DNA of 64,000 nt, from NCBI GenBank assembly GCA_015075405.1, contig JABTUK010000005.1, forward strand, positions 1-64,000, given 5' to 3'. The position numbers and the translations under genes are program-made. Origin of the DNA: Anaerolineales bacterium. Lineage in GTDB: Bacteria > Chloroflexota > Anaerolineae > 4572-78 > J111. Positions 3,141-21,994 of this stretch are shown here, piece by piece. Under the pieces are notes generated by a model. That model saw nothing but the letters and a program-made list of their open reading frames with translations, had not been told where the DNA came from and did not search any database. Position 1 is the stretch's first letter. Each line of letters opens with the position of its first letter.

Positions 3141-3250
3141 TAGCTTGTCTCACTTTCTTTCAACTTCGAACCCATCTTTTGCTTGGTTTAATTATAGCAC
3201 AGAATTACGTCCCTGTCTGGAGTCAGCACGTTTGCTCTAACCGACAAAGT

Positions 3251-5833
3251 TTATAAATTCAACTGCTGTAACAGGCTGTCTGCTTCCTCCACTCGATCCA
3301 GCCGCCCAAGCTGCTCATAGATCGCGCGAGCCTGTTCGGCGTAATTTTGAGCCAGGGGGATATTGTGACGCGCCTGATGCAGGCTGGCCAAACGCAAAAA
3401 GGCTTTGGCAATTTGGCGCACCCAGTTATGCTCGGTGGCTACGGCCTGGGCGCGCAGGATGGCTTTTTCGGCCAAGTCCAACTCATTCATTTGCAAATAA
3501 TTTTCCCCCAGCCGCAGCAAGGCTTGAGTTTCATCAAAGTGAAAGTCTTCGGCTGAAGCCATTTCGACCACCAATTCCAAAGCTCCGTTGGCCTGGTCCC
3601 ACTCCCGGCGCTGTGAATAATAGTAAGCCCTGATCCGGTGGGCGCGAATTTTGGTCCGGGGCGTGATCGCCTGGGCCAGAGCTTTTTCAAAGTGTTGTTG
3701 GGCTGCCGGGTGGTCCTGGCGTTCCAGGGCCCAGCGCGCTAACAGGGTTTCCGCCGCCGCCAGGCAGTCGGATAAATCAGCCTCCTGGGCGATGAGTTGT
3801 CCGGTTCTCAAATGATTCAGCGCCGCCTCCTGGTCGCCGACGGCGCTCAGGGCGTAGCCCAGCGCGTCAATATGCAGCCAGGCCCGCATTTCCTGATCGC
3901 CCAACTTTTCAGCAGCCACCAACGCTTTTTCGGCCAGTTCAATCCGTTTGGATAAAGTGACCGGCGACAGGGCCAGGGGATGCACAATGCCCACAAAAAT
4001 AGTTTGCACCGCCGGCCAATTGGACTTGGCATAAGCCTGTTCCAGGGCCAGGTACAAATTTTCAAGTTCCGGCCCAATCAGTTGGTTATCATAGTTTGAA
4101 CCGGCCCAGTAGTGCGGGCCGATTTGCTCCTGGCAAAAGTTGGCAAAGTACTCGACGTAACGCTGCCATAACTCCGGGTTTTCGGCCCCGGCGGCAAAGG
4201 TTTTGGTCAGCGGTAACAGCCAGAAGCGATTGCCCTGCTTGTTGACCAGCGACAGTTTCTCCAGCGCCACCAGCCCTTCATCCCGGTCCAACTCCGGTGT
4301 ATTTGCCACAAAACCCAAAGCCTCGCGGCTGCCATCCTTGGCAAAAAGGGAGAGCGCCAGCAGCAGGGTGTGAGCCGGTTTGCCCTGGATACGCTCGACG
4401 GCGCCCTCAAAGCAGAAACGGGCAATGTCACTGGTAGGCTGGCTCAAGCGGGTCAGCACTGCCTCGACTTGATAACCCAGCCCCATCTGGGCGATACTCC
4501 AGGCCAGGGCCAGGGGCACGCCGCCGGTGCGGTCGTACAGGCGGCGGGCTTCCTCGGCGGTCAGGGTGACGCCCTTTTTTGCGCATTCGTGGGCAATCAA
4601 TTTTTGGGCGTCTTCCCAGATCATGCCAACCAGCCGCACCGGATAAGCCACGTCCAGACGGTGACGGGTGGTGACAATGGCTTTGGTCGGCGCGGGCAGT
4701 TCGCGCAAAAAAGCCAGCACCGCTTCGTCGTCTACGGTTTCCAGGTTGTCCACCAGCAGCAGGGTGCGCTGGCGGGTCAGAGCGCGACGGACGATTTCGG
4801 CCTGCTCTTCCGGGCGAGCCTCGGTAATCTCCTCATGGTGCAAGGCGACGGCAATCGCCGTATAAATGTCATCCAGGGTGCGTAGGACCTGGGGACGGGT
4901 GGCAATACCCTCGGCGGTCAGCACGGTCTGCTTGGCGCTGGCCCAGATGATGGCTTCAAAGCGATCTTCGGGCGGAATCCGGTCGAAGTTGCGCAGGTAG
5001 CGATGGGCGACCTCCAGGGCCAACGCGCTTTTGCCAATGCCGCCAATGCCGTCAATGGTGACCAGGGCGTGCTGCGAGTGGGGATAGGGCCGCAAAATGC
5101 GGACTACCTGGGCCATCTCGGCCTCACGGCCCACAAAGCGGCCATAATCCGGCTGGGGTAAATTATGAAAAACTTTGGGTGGGGACGGCAGGGCCAGGGC
5201 TGCCCCGCCGGGGAGTAATTTCTGCTCGGCTACGGCCTCGGTCAGTTGCAGCAGCGCCTCGCGCAGACCGGTATTTAATCCAGTCAGCGCTTGCAGTTGG
5301 GCTTTTTGAATGGCGACCTGTTCGCGGGCCGCCTCGGCGGTAAGCCGCTGGAAAAGCAGGCTGTAAATGGGTTGAAGTTCGGGCAGGCTCATCAACTCTT
5401 CAGCCAGGCATTTCAGCAGGTACGTTACAGCCTGGTCCACCCGCTCGCGGTTGCGGCGTTGGGGCAGCACGGTGGCAAAAGAGTGAGCAATCACTTCCCG
5501 GTCGTCGCTTTCAAAGACGCCGGGCCGCCGGACGACCGCCAGCAGCGCCGCCTGAATCTCCTGATTGTTGAAAAACTCCTTATCGGCGGCAATTGCCGCG
5601 ACCAGGTCTTCATCCTGGGCTTCGTACTCGGCCACAAAACGCCCAGCGGCGCGTTTCAGGCTGTCCTCAAAAGCCTGGTTGAAGGCGGCGTTGGAGCGCA
5701 GCTTCTTGATCCTGGCCGCCGCCTCATCGCTCAGGAACTTTTTGGCCTGGTCAGAGACAAAATCAACCAGCGCGTCACCGACCGCCTGCTTGAGGTTAGC
5801 CGGGATTAGTTGCAACAGGTCGAGTTGGAGCAT
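3251..5833 (-). CDS. STAND ATPase: helical N-domain, NB-ARC, TPR repeats
   Basis: The 860-residue protein has an all-helical N-terminal region (1-220) of unrecognised function and an NB-ARC/STAND NTPase core. The core has the P-loop GIGGIGKS (262-269), Walker B TLLLVDN (357-363), a TTRHR sensor segment and the GGVPLALAW motif (437-445). The C-terminal third is helical with TPR-like repeats. STAND proteins are ligand-activated switches; bacterial members include transcription regulators and NLR-like antiphage effectors. No nuclease, TIR or protease domain is recognisable at either end, so defence is only one option. It stands alone, with a heptad hairpin between it and the ABC ATPase gene. Confidence 0.75.
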   Translation of the reverse strand: MLQLDLLQLIPANLKQAVGDALVDFVSDQAKKFLSDEAAARIKKLRSNAAFNQAFEDSLKRAAGRFVAEYEAQDEDLVAAIAADKEFFNNQEIQAALLAVVRRPGVFESDDREVIAHSFATVLPQRRNRERVDQAVTYLLKCLAEELMSLPELQPIYSLLFQRLTAEAAREQVAIQKAQLQALTGLNTGLREALLQLTEAVAEQKLLPGGAALALPSPPKVFHNLPQPDYGRFVGREAEMAQVVRILRPYPHSQHALVTIDGIGGIGKSALALEVAHRYLRNFDRIPPEDRFEAIIWASAKQTVLTAEGIATRPQVLRTLDDIYTAIAVALHHEEITEARPEEQAEIVRRALTRQRTLLLVDNLETVDDEAVLAFLRELPAPTKAIVTTRHRLDVAYPVRLVGMIWEDAQKLIAHECAKKGVTLTAEEARRLYDRTGGVPLALAWSIAQMGLGYQVEAVLTRLSQPTSDIARFCFEGAVERIQGKPAHTLLLALSLFAKDGSREALGFVANTPELDRDEGLVALEKLSLVNKQGNRFWLLPLTKTFAAGAENPELWQRYVEYFANFCQEQIGPHYWAGSNYDNQLIGPELENLYLALEQAYAKSNWPAVQTIFVGIVHPLALSPVTLSKRIELAEKALVAAEKLGDQEMRAWLHIDALGYALSAVGDQEAALNHLRTGQLIAQEADLSDCLAAAETLLARWALERQDHPAAQQHFEKALAQAITPRTKIRAHRIRAYYYSQRREWDQANGALELVVEMASAEDFHFDETQALLRLGENYLQMNELDLAEKAILRAQAVATEHNWVRQIAKAFLRLASLHQARHNIPLAQNYAEQARAIYEQLGRLDRVEEADSLLQQLNL

Positions 5834-16163: not shown

Positions 16164-17912
16164 CTATTCATCCAGCAGATAGACCGGCTCCTGGTAATAG
16201 CGAATCTTATTTTTATCCAATTTATCCAGCAGCAGTTGGTGCAGCCATTCGTTCTTTTCGCTCAAGGATTGGTCAGATTTTAAGTGACGCAGCTCGGCGT
16301 TGAGGCGGAGCACCCGGCCCGGAATGATGAAGCGGGTAATGCCGGCGGGCAGCACATGACCCATCTGGGCAATTTGCAAAACCTGATCCACCGTAAATTC
16401 CGGGAACACCACCAGCGCGGTTAAATCGGGATATTCATGGTGCAGACTCAGCACATCGCCGTTGAGGGTGCGTGTCACCTGGAAAGCCTTGATGTAAGCT
16501 TCGGTCAATTGATTCAAAGCGTCGAGGCGATTAACCCCCTGCTTTTGTTGGATGAGAAACAGTTTGCCTTCGACGGTTTGCAGGTGGCATAAACCGCCAA
16601 ATTCGACCATCTCATCCAGCACCTTATCTTTGCTGGTTTCCACCAACGAGATGGTGGACAGGGTCTTGAGCAGCTCGATCAGGTCGGCCGGCTTGGCCTG
16701 GCGAATGGCGTGCAGCCAGGTTCGCAGGCCCAACTGCTCTTTGGCGGCGGCTACTTGGACCACAATGTGCGGATAATCCAACGCTTTGAGGGCCGCCGCG
16801 CGGGTTGCCCCGTCGAGCACCACATAACGATCCCCGGCCTGAGCCACGACCGGCGGGTTCGACAAGCGGCCCTCGACCTCGAAGCGGCGCACCAATTTTT
16901 CTACCCGGCGCTGGTCCACCTGCTCGTGCGGAAAAACTTTGTCCAGCGGGACCACCTGTAAACCGAGTAAACTCTCGCTGCGGACCTCGCGGATCAACTC
17001 GATAATTTTTTCGGCGATGGTAATGGAGGCCGCTCGCTGAGCGTCTTCAGTGCTGGCGGCAATGTGGGGGGTGGCAATGACCCGTTCGTGCTGGGCCAGG
17101 GCGTTATTGATGGCCGGTTCTTCGGCAAATACATCCAGGGCCGCCCCGGCCAGCCGGTCTTCATTCAAAGCCGCCAACAGCGCCGCCTCGTCCACCACTG
17201 TGCCGCGGGCGGTGTTGATGAGATAAGCCGTCGGCTTCATCACCGCCAACTGCTCGGCCCCGATGAGATTTTTGGTTTCAGCTTTGGAAGGCACGTGCAG
17301 GGTGACAAAATCGGCCTTTTTTAAGAGTTCCAGCAGGTCCATGGATTCAACCCCGGCCTCCAGATTCAACTCCGGGGTGGGCCGGCGCTGGTTGACGATA
17401 ACTTTCATGCCAAAAGCCTGGGCGCGGGTAGCCACCTCGCGCCCAATCCGGCCAAAGCCAATAATGCCCAGGGTTTTGCCCGATAGTCCGGTACCCATAA
17501 ATTTACTCTTTTCCCACTGACCTTTTTTCAGGCTCAAATCGGCGCGGGGCAAACCGCGCGCCAGGGCCAGGAGCAGGGCCATGGTGTGTTCGGCGACGGC
17601 CAGGGTATTGGCGTCGGGGCAGTTGACCACTTTGATTTCGCGGTTTTGGGCAGCGACCACATCTATGTTATCCAGCCCCGCCCCCGCCCGGCCGATCACC
17701 TTCAGCCGCAGCCCGTGCTCGATCACCTCCGCCGTAATTCGGGTGGCGCTGCGCGTCACTACGGCCTCGTAGTCGCCAATTACGGCCAGCAACTCGTTTA
17801 ATTTTAGACCCGTTTTTACCTCAACATCAGCATGCTCGCGCAGCATCTCGATGCCCACCTCGGCAATCGAATCACAAATCAAGACCCGGGGACGCCGGCT
17901 TTCAGACTTCAT
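16164..17912 (-). CDS. serA: phosphoglycerate dehydrogenase fused to ParB/Srx-fold domain
   Basis: Residues 1-315 form a D-3-phosphoglycerate dehydrogenase: Rossmann loop GIIGFGRIGRE (149-159) and catalytic Arg236 (NTARGTVVDE), Glu265 (AEEPA) and His283 (TPHIA). Instead of the usual ACT-type regulatory tail, residues ~320-400 form a ParB/sulfiredoxin-fold domain with VPLDKVFPHEQVDQRRVEKL and YVVLDGATRAAAL. A further ~180 residues of unrecognised helical/beta sequence follow. The closest functional analogues of this domain acting on small molecules are the free-serine kinases SerK and SbnI, which make O-phosphoserine. A fused enzyme of the phosphoserine route is thus an inference. Start ATG 17912. 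Confidence 0.85.
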   Translation of the reverse strand: MKSESRRPRVLICDSIAEVGIEMLREHADVEVKTGLKLNELLAVIGDYEAVVTRSATRITAEVIEHGLRLKVIGRAGAGLDNIDVVAAQNREIKVVNCPDANTLAVAEHTMALLLALARGLPRADLSLKKGQWEKSKFMGTGLSGKTLGIIGFGRIGREVATRAQAFGMKVIVNQRRPTPELNLEAGVESMDLLELLKKADFVTLHVPSKAETKNLIGAEQLAVMKPTAYLINTARGTVVDEAALLAALNEDRLAGAALDVFAEEPAINNALAQHERVIATPHIAASTEDAQRAASITIAEKIIELIREVRSESLLGLQVVPLDKVFPHEQVDQRRVEKLVRRFEVEGRLSNPPVVAQAGDRYVVLDGATRAAALKALDYPHIVVQVAAAKEQLGLRTWLHAIRQAKPADLIELLKTLSTISLVETSKDKVLDEMVEFGGLCHLQTVEGKLFLIQQKQGVNRLDALNQLTEAYIKAFQVTRTLNGDVLSLHHEYPDLTALVVFPEFTVDQVLQIAQMGHVLPAGITRFIIPGRVLRLNAELRHLKSDQSLSEKNEWLHQLLLDKLDKNKIRYYQEPVYLLDE

Positions 17913-18084: not shown

Positions 18085-18175
18085 GATTATACTCTATTTG
18101 ACTCTGTTTTGCATCTGAAACGTGTTGTGTGGGTACGTTTCAAATTTTTGATGAGTTTATTTACAGCCCGTGTTC

Positions 18176-18238
18176 AGAGCAGGATTGATTCGCGGAATTT
18201 AAGGATAATTTATCCTTAAATTCCATCAATCCTGCTCT
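18176..18238. repeat. 28-bp hairpin with 4-nt bulge
   Basis: agagcaggattgat + tcgc bulge + ggaatttaaggata pairs with tatccttaaattcc + atcaatcctgctct around a 3-nt loop. Pairing is perfect apart from the bulge. No T-run follows. It lies downstream of the selenoprotein candidate's stop. Confidence 0.8.
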
Positions 18239-18372
18239 AAATTGGGTCTCAACTGCAAGATTTCCTTAGTGTTTTATGTCTACCAAAAAATTGGAACGCA
18301 CTCGTCTTGCGTCTTCCATTTATATCACGCAAGACACAACACGGATTGAAGCACTATTTTCCCGGAACGACC

Positions 18373-18978
18373 TTAAGAGGTGGATAACAGAATCGCCTCC
18401 AGCAACTGTTCCTCACTCACACGCCCCTGCGCAGCGTGGGTTCCGTTCAACACAATATGAGGCGTGCTCATGACCTTATAGTGTTGAGCCAGGTCGGTCA
18501 GCACGACGGCGGAAACAGCCTCGGCCTTGATTTGAGGAGTTTCAAAGGCAAACTTGTGGACCAGGCTGACCGCCTGGGCGCAGTGGGGTCAGGTGGGCGT
18601 GGTAAAGATTTCCAGCTTTAGCGGGGTATGTAACTGGGCCAGGGCTTGCCGGGTTTGAGGCAGCAGCCCTGAGTCGCCCCGGCCGCTGACGATGATGGCC
18701 GAGACCAGGGCGGCTAATTCCAGGCCCAGCGGCGCGCCGACAAAGACCAGTTCCCGCCCGCTGTGGCTACGGACTACCAGCCGGTCGGCGGGCACATTCG
18801 CTGCGGCGGCCTGGGTGGTCACAGAGAGGTATCCGGTCAAGGCCATCAGTTCAGACAGGGCGGCCAGGGTATCCGGCTCCGGCTGCTCCAGGGCGAAATA
18901 GATCACCTCCACCGGCGATTTGATTTCTTTTAATGCCTGTCGCAGCGCCTGTCCCCGGTAGATTTTTAGAATTGACAT
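18373..18978 (-). CDS. candidate selenoprotein: PDO/thioredoxin-like with UxxC site
   Basis: Reading through one in-frame TGA (18591-18589) gives 201 residues ending at TAA 18375-18373. Both sides belong to one protein: a first thioredoxin-fold domain without CxxC (1-115, including FVGAPLGLELAALVSAII) and a second whose active site reads EIFTTPT-U130-PHC133, followed by AQAVSLVHKFAFETPQI and a VMSTPHIV cis-proline strand. Archaeal/bacterial PDO and glutaredoxin-like proteins have TPTCPxC here, so the TGA replaces exactly the attacking cysteine. A SECIS-like hairpin follows the TGA at once (18561-18577). Likely a disulfide or peroxide-linked redox enzyme. Start ATG 18978; 19011 is an alternative. 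Sec genes are not in the window. Confidence 0.8.
18561..18577 (-). promoter_or_regulatory. SECIS-like hairpin downstream of UGA
   Basis: In the mRNA, ccaggc-ggtca-gcctgg forms a perfect 6-bp stem with a GGUCA loop starting 18 nt after the UGA. This is the spacing and loop content (GGUC) of bacterial SECIS elements such as E. coli fdhF. Pairing below this stem is weak. Confidence 0.7.
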
Positions 18979-19458: not shown

Positions 19459-20403
19459 TTAGCGACGATTCAGGCGCGGGTTCAGCGCATCCTGGAGGCC
19501 ATCGCCCAGCAAATTAAAGCCTAGCACCACCAGGGCAATGGCCACCCCGGGAATAAAAACCAGGTGCGGCGCGGTAAAAATCTGGTTGCGTTCGGCGCTG
19601 ACCATCAGGCCCCATTCGGGGGTGGGCGGCTGAGCGCCCAAGCCCAAGAAGGAGAGGGCGGCCACTTCGACAATGGCCGTGCCAATACCCAGCGTCCCCT
19701 GGACAATCAACGGGGTGATCGAGTTGGGCAAGATATCCCGGAACAAAATTCGGGGCGGCGGCACGCCCAGGGCACGGTCGGCCAGGATAAAATCCTGCTC
19801 TTTGACCGACAGCACGCTGGAACGAATCACCCGCGCATAGGCCGGAATGGTGACAATGCCAATGGCAATCAGGGCATTAATCAGGCCCGGCCCCAGCACC
19901 GTCACAATGGCAATGGCCAGAATCAAAGCTGGAAAGGCCAGCAGCACATCCATCAGCCGCATAATCACGTTATCCAGCCAGCCGCCAACAAAGCCGGCCA
20001 CCGCGCCCAGCAGCGTGCCGACGACAATGGCAAACGTCACCGAGGCAAAGCCGACTTGCAGCGACAGCCGCGATCCGTAAACCACCCGGCTGAAAAAATC
20101 TCGAAAGTTGGCGTCTACGCCAAAGATGTGTTGGGGTTTGTCGGTGGAACAACCCAGCATGTGAATACACGGGGCCGAGCGTTTTTTAATGCCTGGTTCA
20201 ATCCCAATCAACTGCTGTTCGGGACCATAGGGGGCAATCAGCGGGGCAAAGACAGCAATAAGGGTCAGGGCCAGCAAAATGAGCATCCCCACAACCGCAG
20301 AACGTTTTTGCAGTAGATGGCGAATAGCATCTCGATAGAGACTGCTGGGTTCTTTGGTTTTAGCAACCGGCGGGACGGTCAAAGGGATTGGCTCGGCGGC
20401 CAT
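19459..20403 (-). CDS. oligopeptide-type ABC permease (DppC/OppC-like)
   Basis: A 314-residue membrane protein with a cytoplasmic N-terminus, six hydrophobic segments and the EAA loop (VKEQDFILADRALGVPPPRILFRDILP) typical of DppC-type permeases. The residues ending the protein (GDGLQDALNPRLNRR) are the family's conserved C-terminus. It follows the DppB-like gene on the same strand. No ATPase or binding-protein genes are adjacent, so the rest of the importer is encoded elsewhere. Confidence 0.9.
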   Translation of the reverse strand: MAAEPIPLTVPPVAKTKEPSSLYRDAIRHLLQKRSAVVGMLILLALTLIAVFAPLIAPYGPEQQLIGIEPGIKKRSAPCIHMLGCSTDKPQHIFGVDANFRDFFSRVVYGSRLSLQVGFASVTFAIVVGTLLGAVAGFVGGWLDNVIMRLMDVLLAFPALILAIAIVTVLGPGLINALIAIGIVTIPAYARVIRSSVLSVKEQDFILADRALGVPPPRILFRDILPNSITPLIVQGTLGIGTAIVEVAALSFLGLGAQPPTPEWGLMVSAERNQIFTAPHLVFIPGVAIALVVLGFNLLGDGLQDALNPRLNRR

Positions 20404-20445: not shown

Positions 20446-21528
20446 TCAACTCAAGCGAATACGCGGGTCAAGAAAAGCGTAAGAAATATCCACAATCAAA
20501 TTGATAACCACAAAACCCACCGCCACAATCAAGGTAACGCCTTGCACAATAATATAATCACGGGCGGTAATGGCCTCAAAGAGGGTGCGGCCCAGACCGG
20601 CCAGGTTAAAAATGGTCTCGGTCAGCACCGCGCCACTGAGCAAAGAGCCTAATTGCAGGCCCAAAATTGTGACCACCGGCAGCATGGCATTGCTCAAGCC
20701 ATGCCCAAAAACCACGCCCATTTCAGCCAGCCCCTTGGCCCGGGCGGTACGGATGTAGTCGAGACTCAAAACTTCGAGTAAACTGGAACGGGTGATGCGG
20801 GCCACAATTGCCAGGGGAATGGTGCCGACGGCGATAGCCGGCAACAACATGTGTTTGAAGGCGTCGCTAAAAGCGGTCCAGTTGCCGGTCAACAGGGCAT
20901 TGATAAAGTTAAGATTAGCCATTAAGCTAAAAAAGGTAAACCCGGCTGAGTCGGGCGACAGGTTCCAGCCCCACACCTCGAAAAAGGGAGGATTGACAAC
21001 ACCGGAGGTTAACCGGCCCGAAGGCGGCAATTGCAAAAAAGAGTCTTTTAAAAGAAGGGCAAAGACATATTGCAGCAACAAGCCCAATACAAAAATGGGC
21101 AGCGAAACGCCAATATTAGCCCCCACCATAACCAGCACGTCAATGGTTGAATTGTGCCAGTAAGCGGAAATAACGCCGAATAAAATCCCCAGAATCGTGG
21201 CAAAAATCATGGCCGTCAAAGCCAGTTCAATGGTTACCGGTAAACGCTCGACGATAATTTCGCTCACGGGGCGGCCAAAGCGGAAAGACACGCCCAAATC
21301 ACGCTCGATGACAACTTGTTTGAAATAAATCCAAAATTGCCAGAGGATGGGTTGGTCCAGGCCGTTTCGTTTTATAAAGGCGTCACAAATTATATCGGTC
21401 GCTCGTTCGCCCAGCACCGCCCGGCAGGGGTCGCCGGGAAGCTTCCGGGCCAGGGCAAAGGTGGCAAGTAAAATTCCAACCAGCACCGGGATAGCCAGCG
21501 TCACCCGGCGAGCAATGTATTGAAACAT
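20446..21528 (-). CDS. oligopeptide-type ABC permease (DppB/OppB-like)
   Basis: From ATG 21528 the product is 360 residues starting MFQYIARRVTLAIPVLVGIL, the usual N-terminus of DppB permeases. It has an EAA loop (LDYIRTARAKGLAEMGVVFGH) and a C-terminus YAFLDPRIRLS. A periplasmic-side insertion near 145-210 (PPSGRLTSGVVNPPFFEVWGW) includes a short extra segment also seen in long DppB members. It forms an operon with the DppC-like gene. Confidence 0.9.
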   Translation of the reverse strand: MFQYIARRVTLAIPVLVGILLATFALARKLPGDPCRAVLGERATDIICDAFIKRNGLDQPILWQFWIYFKQVVIERDLGVSFRFGRPVSEIIVERLPVTIELALTAMIFATILGILFGVISAYWHNSTIDVLVMVGANIGVSLPIFVLGLLLQYVFALLLKDSFLQLPPSGRLTSGVVNPPFFEVWGWNLSPDSAGFTFFSLMANLNFINALLTGNWTAFSDAFKHMLLPAIAVGTIPLAIVARITRSSLLEVLSLDYIRTARAKGLAEMGVVFGHGLSNAMLPVVTILGLQLGSLLSGAVLTETIFNLAGLGRTLFEAITARDYIIVQGVTLIVAVGFVVINLIVDISYAFLDPRIRLS

Positions 21529-21994
21529 CCAAATCCTCCCCACAGCCCATTTTAGCCTCAGATGATAACCCAAACTAACCGAAATGGCAAAAGGCTGGCG
21601 TTCAAGGTCGGTTTTATCAGCCGGAAATGGTTAAATAAGATTTACCGAAGATTAACCGGCCCTTAACCCAACCTTAAATGCCTCTTAACCTCCACCCTTT
21701 AGACTCCATATAAACCTTAAAATAACCGCTCATGAACTTAGCGTAACTCACCGGCCTCATTCCCATTCATTTTGAAACTGACAATATCGCTGTGATCAAC
21801 AAAAGACACAAAATTATCAAAGGTACGATTTATCTCCAGGGCCACCAGAGCAGTTTTCACAATTCGATTACGCAAGCCCTCGATGTGAGGCCGGACGAAG
21901 ATCAATTGACCTACGAGATCAGCGCAGACTTAATCCGGTCTATGAGAAACAAGGCCCTGGTCTTTCGAGTGGATTATTGCTTTTGGAGACCCGG
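21529..21994. other. divergent intergenic region with Pho boxes
   Basis: About 466 bp between the permease operon and btaA. It is AT-rich. Its main signal is the TTAAC array at 21641-21689. A 68-codon open frame from GTG 21792 overlapping the btaA start has no recognisable family and is not called. Confidence 0.6.
21641..21689 (+). promoter_or_regulatory. Pho-box array (five TTAAC-type repeats, 11-bp period)
   Basis: Units start at 21641 (tttac), 21652 (ttaac), 21663 (ttaac), 21674 (ttaaa) and 21685 (ttaac), exactly 11 bp apart, each preceded by C or pyrimidine in the later copies. Direct TTAAC-type repeats with 11-bp spacing are the binding sites of PhoB/PhoP/SphR response regulators. It lies upstream of btaA, whose products replace phospholipids. 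Confidence 0.75.

Follow-up and report, generated by a model that had tools for sequence, protein, structure and literature searches.

The described relatives of the protein reported here are two-domain thioredoxin-fold proteins of the PDO and AhpF type. In the N-terminal domain of AhpF two thioredoxin folds are combined, of which only the second carries a redox motif. Within the same superfamily a selenocysteine (Sec) protein with a UxxC motif has been described from Carboxydothermus hydrogenoformans (PMC1794560; ABB15282.1, PMC13188914), and Sec forms were reported in bacteria (PMC13188914, PMC9312934) as well as in Asgard archaea (PMC11227280). These published cases bear out the statement of an earlier note on the present DNA that UxxC thioredoxin-like selenoproteins exist.

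The gene considered here lies in a window, i.e. the whole stretch of DNA that was analysed, comprising the first 64,000 nt of contig JABTUK010000005.1 of an uncultured, Anaerolineales-related bacterium of the Chloroflexota (GCA_015075405.1). In our judgement it very probably encodes a selenoprotein, in which UGA-130 is predicted to be read as selenocysteine at a UPHC active site. The relevant elements are:

18373..18978, minus strand: coding sequence of the proposed Sec-containing, PDO-like protein, 201 residues, TAA included, with a start common to four orthologues
18589..18591, minus strand: in-frame TGA at codon 130, the putative Sec of U-P-H-C; three orthologues likewise have TGA here, and among PDOs the column alternates between Cys and TGA
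18580..18582, minus strand: TGC encoding Cys133, which is the resolving cysteine in UPHC and does not vary among 29 aligned proteins
18460..18462, minus strand: codon of Pro173 (MSTPH), likely the cis-proline facing the active site, invariant in the 29 aligned proteins

The frame extends from the ATG at 18978 to the TAA at 18375-18373 and contains one internal stop within its 201 codons, the TGA at 18591-18589, just as the earlier note had described it; in the program-made list of open reading frames the gene was represented by a 140-aa first part only. That one protein is encoded on both sides of the TGA, as had also been claimed, is corroborated by the match of NCBIfam TIGR02187 (PDO_seleno_TRX) to residues 10-197 (E=8.7e-41, 139.6 bits) and by the Pfam Thioredoxin_3 match to residues 121-197. 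The profile matches of the 201-aa protein were of the thioredoxin/glutaredoxin type only, and a fused flavoprotein (thioredoxin-reductase-like) domain was not among them. The profile match and the alignment with PDOs agree in indicating two tandem thioredoxin folds; the predicted structure was poor (AlphaFold run with the window protein plus one orthologue, mean pLDDT 37.8) and was not used. The role of Pro173 as cis-proline is presumably that of the thioredoxin fold in general. The best solved relatives were PDOs of archaeal and bacterial origin (2hls, 1a8l, 1j08, 2ywm), followed by the N-terminal domain of AhpF. The equivalog cut-off of TIGR02187 (185 bits) was not reached. According to the alignment, the N-terminal CxxC is lost via a 3-residue gap next to shortened loops, and the motif is missing in all four proteins of the window type, i.e. 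in the window protein and its three orthologues. The PDO/thioredoxin-like identity given in the earlier note holds for the superfamily, but the loss of the N-terminal CxxC makes the protein an atypical PDO.

Orthologues were sought in 12 genomes of the same family and were found in G001 (a sister species of the same genus, 76% identical), G009 (62%) and G004 (56%), whereby the window-type proteins cover four species and three genera. Each of the three orthologues contains a single internal stop, a TGA at the same codon, embedded in FTTPT-U-P[HTS]-C, and among the window-type proteins conservation 3' of the TGA equals that 5' of it. A Cys form was seen in none of the three, and a phylum-wide draw of 400 genomes returned no further window-type member at E<=1e-38. 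In the genomes sampled, the window-type protein thus appears restricted to one family, with Sec predicted in every member seen. Evidently, as far as can be judged from these orthologues, the TGA at codon 130 is under selection. A nonsense mutation, which under the standard code would truncate the frame at its single TGA and leave a fresh pseudogene ending at codon 130, is difficult to reconcile with the occurrence of the same TGA codon in four species (three genera) whose proteins are 56-76% identical, with a 3' part that stays in frame and conserved, and with the position of the TGA on the column that holds the catalytic Cys or Sec in this family. We regard this explanation as very improbable, and the orthologues already refute it. 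An assembly error with TGC or TGT as the true codon deserves consideration inasmuch as indels exist in the assembly (11 deletions and one insertion in selB; frameshifts in a tuf copy and in cysN pieces). The known errors, however, are indels and not substitutions, the PDO frame runs without any indel over 201 codons, and the TGA occupies the same codon in three separately assembled genomes. The sense codon in close homologues, which the earlier note had named as contrary evidence, was not found; because no close homologue carries one at the position of 18589-18591, the Sec reading cannot be refuted on these grounds, and the probability of an assembly error at this codon is practically negligible.

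Selenocysteine at codon 130 was further considered against the PDO family as a whole. Searches of the order and the class returned many PDOs with the full N-terminal CxxC. The codon for the C/U residue that opens the redox part of the C-terminal TPT[C/U]PxC motif was TGC or TGT in the 28 other PDO genes examined, and TGA in 30 or more additional PDO-like loci of the class Anaerolineae. The proposal that the TGA stands exactly at the first cysteine of CPxC is thereby substantiated, since dozens of PDOs have Cys or TGA at the aligned position, and the suggested look at residue 130 of the homologues retrieved both forms. In a tree of 60 proteins Sec and Cys forms interleave, with a minimum of 8 changes, or of 3 if only well supported branches are counted; the four window-type proteins group in a single Sec-only clade, which is fully supported and sits on a long branch. 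These data indicate that, throughout Anaerolineae, PDOs commonly have Sec at this one site and that it was swapped with Cys several times. The same genome encodes a typical Cys PDO (L027) with the motifs CQYC and CPYC; its identity to the window protein is 33%. In plasmids, tblastn detected distant relatives only, mostly AhpF.

Profile searches of the genome revealed one full-length SelA match (585 bits), a tRNA-Sec (69.7 bits vs. a gathering score of 47; tRNA-SeC with anticodon UCA according to ARAGORN) and a full-length selD (368 bits; L021 1402-2481, minus strand). The latter carries one in-frame TGA in LAKCAGUASK, which we take to be the well-known Sec form of SelD; selD is the second predicted selenoprotein gene of this genome. 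No formate dehydrogenase was added to the selenoproteins because the alpha homologues of this genome have no internal TGA. Pieces of selB were located on contig C4 (34.1-36.0 kb), where they jointly cover much of SelB in shifting frames; relative to the intact 636-aa SelB of G001 they lack a single base at 11 places and have one base inserted, with several of these differences in homopolymers. The adjoining cysN is likewise broken, and in G001 an intact elongation-factor-like (cysN-type) gene stands at the equivalent position beside selB. Frameshifts in cysN/cysD, selB and the tuf copy were observed in L015 (G000 contig C4, ~28-36 kb) and in L016 near 3171-4360. Judging from this pattern, the frameshifts in selB, cysN and tuf are probably local indel errors of the assembly and not a loss of selB. 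Among the 12 family genomes SelB scored above cut-off in 8, and tRNA-Sec did so in 13 of 20 related genomes. The Sec machinery expected by the earlier note is accordingly present as regards selA, tRNA-Sec (UCA) and selD, and with a reservation as regards selB, which is split by indels here and intact in G001; the joint absence of selB and selC, mentioned there as counter-evidence, was not observed, as the tRNA-Sec was found and selB is present though split.

The frame would also be open if TGA were a sense codon, i.e. if UGA were reassigned to an ordinary amino acid or were subject to low-level readthrough, both without selenium. Nothing specific speaks for this explanation, and 8 of the 33 long open reading frames of the window end in TGA. 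Since TGA is thus an ordinary stop in this genome, its recoding is local; furthermore, the recoded codon stands at the redox Cys position of a protein whose genome has tRNA-Sec, selA, selD and selB. We therefore give reassignment or readthrough a very small chance and retain selenocysteine as the reading of UGA-130.

Downstream of this codon the following structure was found:

18561..18577, minus strand: SECIS-like hairpin with a 6-bp stem, CCAGGC-GGUCA-GCCUGG, which begins 11 nt downstream of the UGA, with 17 nt from UGA to loop

The published bSECIS constraints (PMC13188914) comprise a loop of 3-9 nt, a stem of 4-16 bp, a G in the first two loop positions, a distance of 16-37 nt from the UGA and <= -7.5 kcal/mol; the hairpin fits them with a 5-nt loop, 6 bp, GG, 17 nt and -12.1 kcal/mol. 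This fit is only weakly discriminating because ~69% of synonymous recodings of the same stretch comply with the generic constraints too, and the generic model is easily met in such GC-rich coding DNA. The 61-nt fold was not better than that of shuffled sequences (z=0.10); an equally strong fold at the same place (nt 13-32) occurred in only 1.2% of synonymous recodings. The earlier note had placed the hairpin correctly, as it starts 11 nt downstream of the UGA and has its loop from nt 18 onwards, but had overstated its weight as evidence. Among the orthologues the hairpin is identical in G001 and weaker in G009 (G-U pairs, -5.6 kcal/mol), and G004 has a hairpin in another register, GUG-C-GGCC-AGUCU-GGCC-CAC, further downstream. 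Across the family, hairpins at the right distance were stronger for TGA loci than for Cys loci (Mann-Whitney p=0.0008; mean z vs. synonymous recoding -1.29 and -0.39, respectively), these being related sequences and not independent ones. The bSECIS model was fitted by 29 of 34 TGA loci vs. 14 of 28 Cys loci. As pair counts over 10 related hairpins contained no compensatory double changes, no covariation support is claimed for this set. Overall, the hairpin is compatible with a SECIS, and its strength exceeds the expectation for this place; it does not prove the case, because recodings and half of the Cys loci meet the generic model as well and compensatory changes are absent.

Hairpins of 6-7 bp with other sequences, at the same distance from the UGA, were observed in further Sec-PDOs of Anaerolineae (L110, L127, L131, L132, L133, L112, L117), exemplified by the stems CGCGAGC/GCUCGCG and CUGGCAC/GUGCUGG. 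In three Cys PDOs with TGT at the active site (L071, L074, L088) a strong CCAGGC-loop-GCCUGG hairpin persists where a SECIS would lie, possibly a fossil SECIS after a change from Sec to Cys.

The Sec gene is flanked by the following genes:

19459..20403, minus strand: oligopeptide ABC transporter permease of the OppC/DppC type, upstream of the Sec gene, syntenic in G001 and G004
20446..21573, minus strand: oligopeptide ABC transporter permease of the OppB/DppB type, situated one gene further upstream and likewise syntenic in G001 and G004
16164-17912, minus strand: 582-aa fusion protein in which a SerA-like D-2-hydroxyacid dehydrogenase is joined to a C-terminal SbnI/free-serine-kinase-like domain (PDB 5ujd E=1.2e-18, 5x0b 5.8e-5)

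The OppB/OppC-type permease pair precedes the Sec gene in the window genome, in G001 and in G004. As the gap between permease gene and Sec gene is only 7 nt in G004, co-transcription is suggested there, and the arrangement hints at a link of the Sec protein to peptide uptake. In G009 a 588-aa protein similar to the SerA fusion is encoded downstream of the Sec gene (L134 578-2344). The interval that separates the SerA fusion from the Sec gene contains a near-perfect palindrome of ~70 bp (18172-18242), whose arm sequence is single-copy in the window. The Rfam search around the Sec gene yielded weak, sub-threshold miRNA matches only, mostly at the palindrome outside the gene.

With respect to the mechanism, SelA would make Sec-tRNA using selenophosphate from SelD, and SelB would bring it to UGA-130 by binding the hairpin just downstream as a putative SECIS. 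The product would be a two-domain thioredoxin-fold protein of the PDO/AhpF N-terminal domain superfamily. Its N-terminal domain without CxxC is probably structural, and its C-terminal domain would hold one active site, Sec130-Pro-His-Cys133, together with the invariant Pro173. Most likely this site cycles between the selenol/thiol and the selenenylsulfide form, which would reduce disulfides or pass electrons on to a peroxidase or another thiol protein, with a thioredoxin-reductase-like flavoprotein as the donor. Tentatively, and with somewhat less than even confidence, we propose a Sec-obligatory, family-restricted PDO paralogue that has lost its N-terminal redox site and relies on a single selenenylsulfide site, and whose function is tied to the neighbouring oligopeptide ABC transporter.

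Since gene callers stop at UGA, genes of this kind are truncated in annotations. The Sec and Cys PDOs of Anaerolineae form a natural series in which the need of some lineages for selenium at this site can be studied; to it the window-type clade contributes a branch where a return to Cys has not been seen. In comparison with the Carboxydothermus hydrogenoformans protein/ABB15282.1, the window protein has the superfamily, the UxxC motif and the single Sec in common; it differs in its score below the TIGR02187 cut-off, in the lack of the N-terminal CxxC and in its own long-branched, Sec-only clade. With the thermophilic PDOs it shares the tandem thioredoxin folds, as predicted from profile and alignment, the C-terminal TPT[C/U]PxC-like motif and the trailing proline, whereas those proteins possess two CxxC motifs and the first is missing here, along with the shortening of the loops. 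Similarity to the N-terminal domain of AhpF (1zyn, 1hyu, 4o5q) is detectable and extends to the redox motif in the second fold only, but the window protein stands alone, without a flavoprotein domain, and Sec would replace Cys; by score it is closer to PDO than to AhpF (139.6 vs. 63.2 bits). The Sec/Cys PDOs of Anaerolineae (e.g. L069, L073, L077, L110, L132) have the TGA at the identical column and a hairpin after it; in contrast to the window protein, to which they are ~30% identical, they keep the N-terminal CxxC and a full-length domain. Sec members of this gene family were thus already known, and the window protein represents a divergent branch with seemingly fixed selenium.
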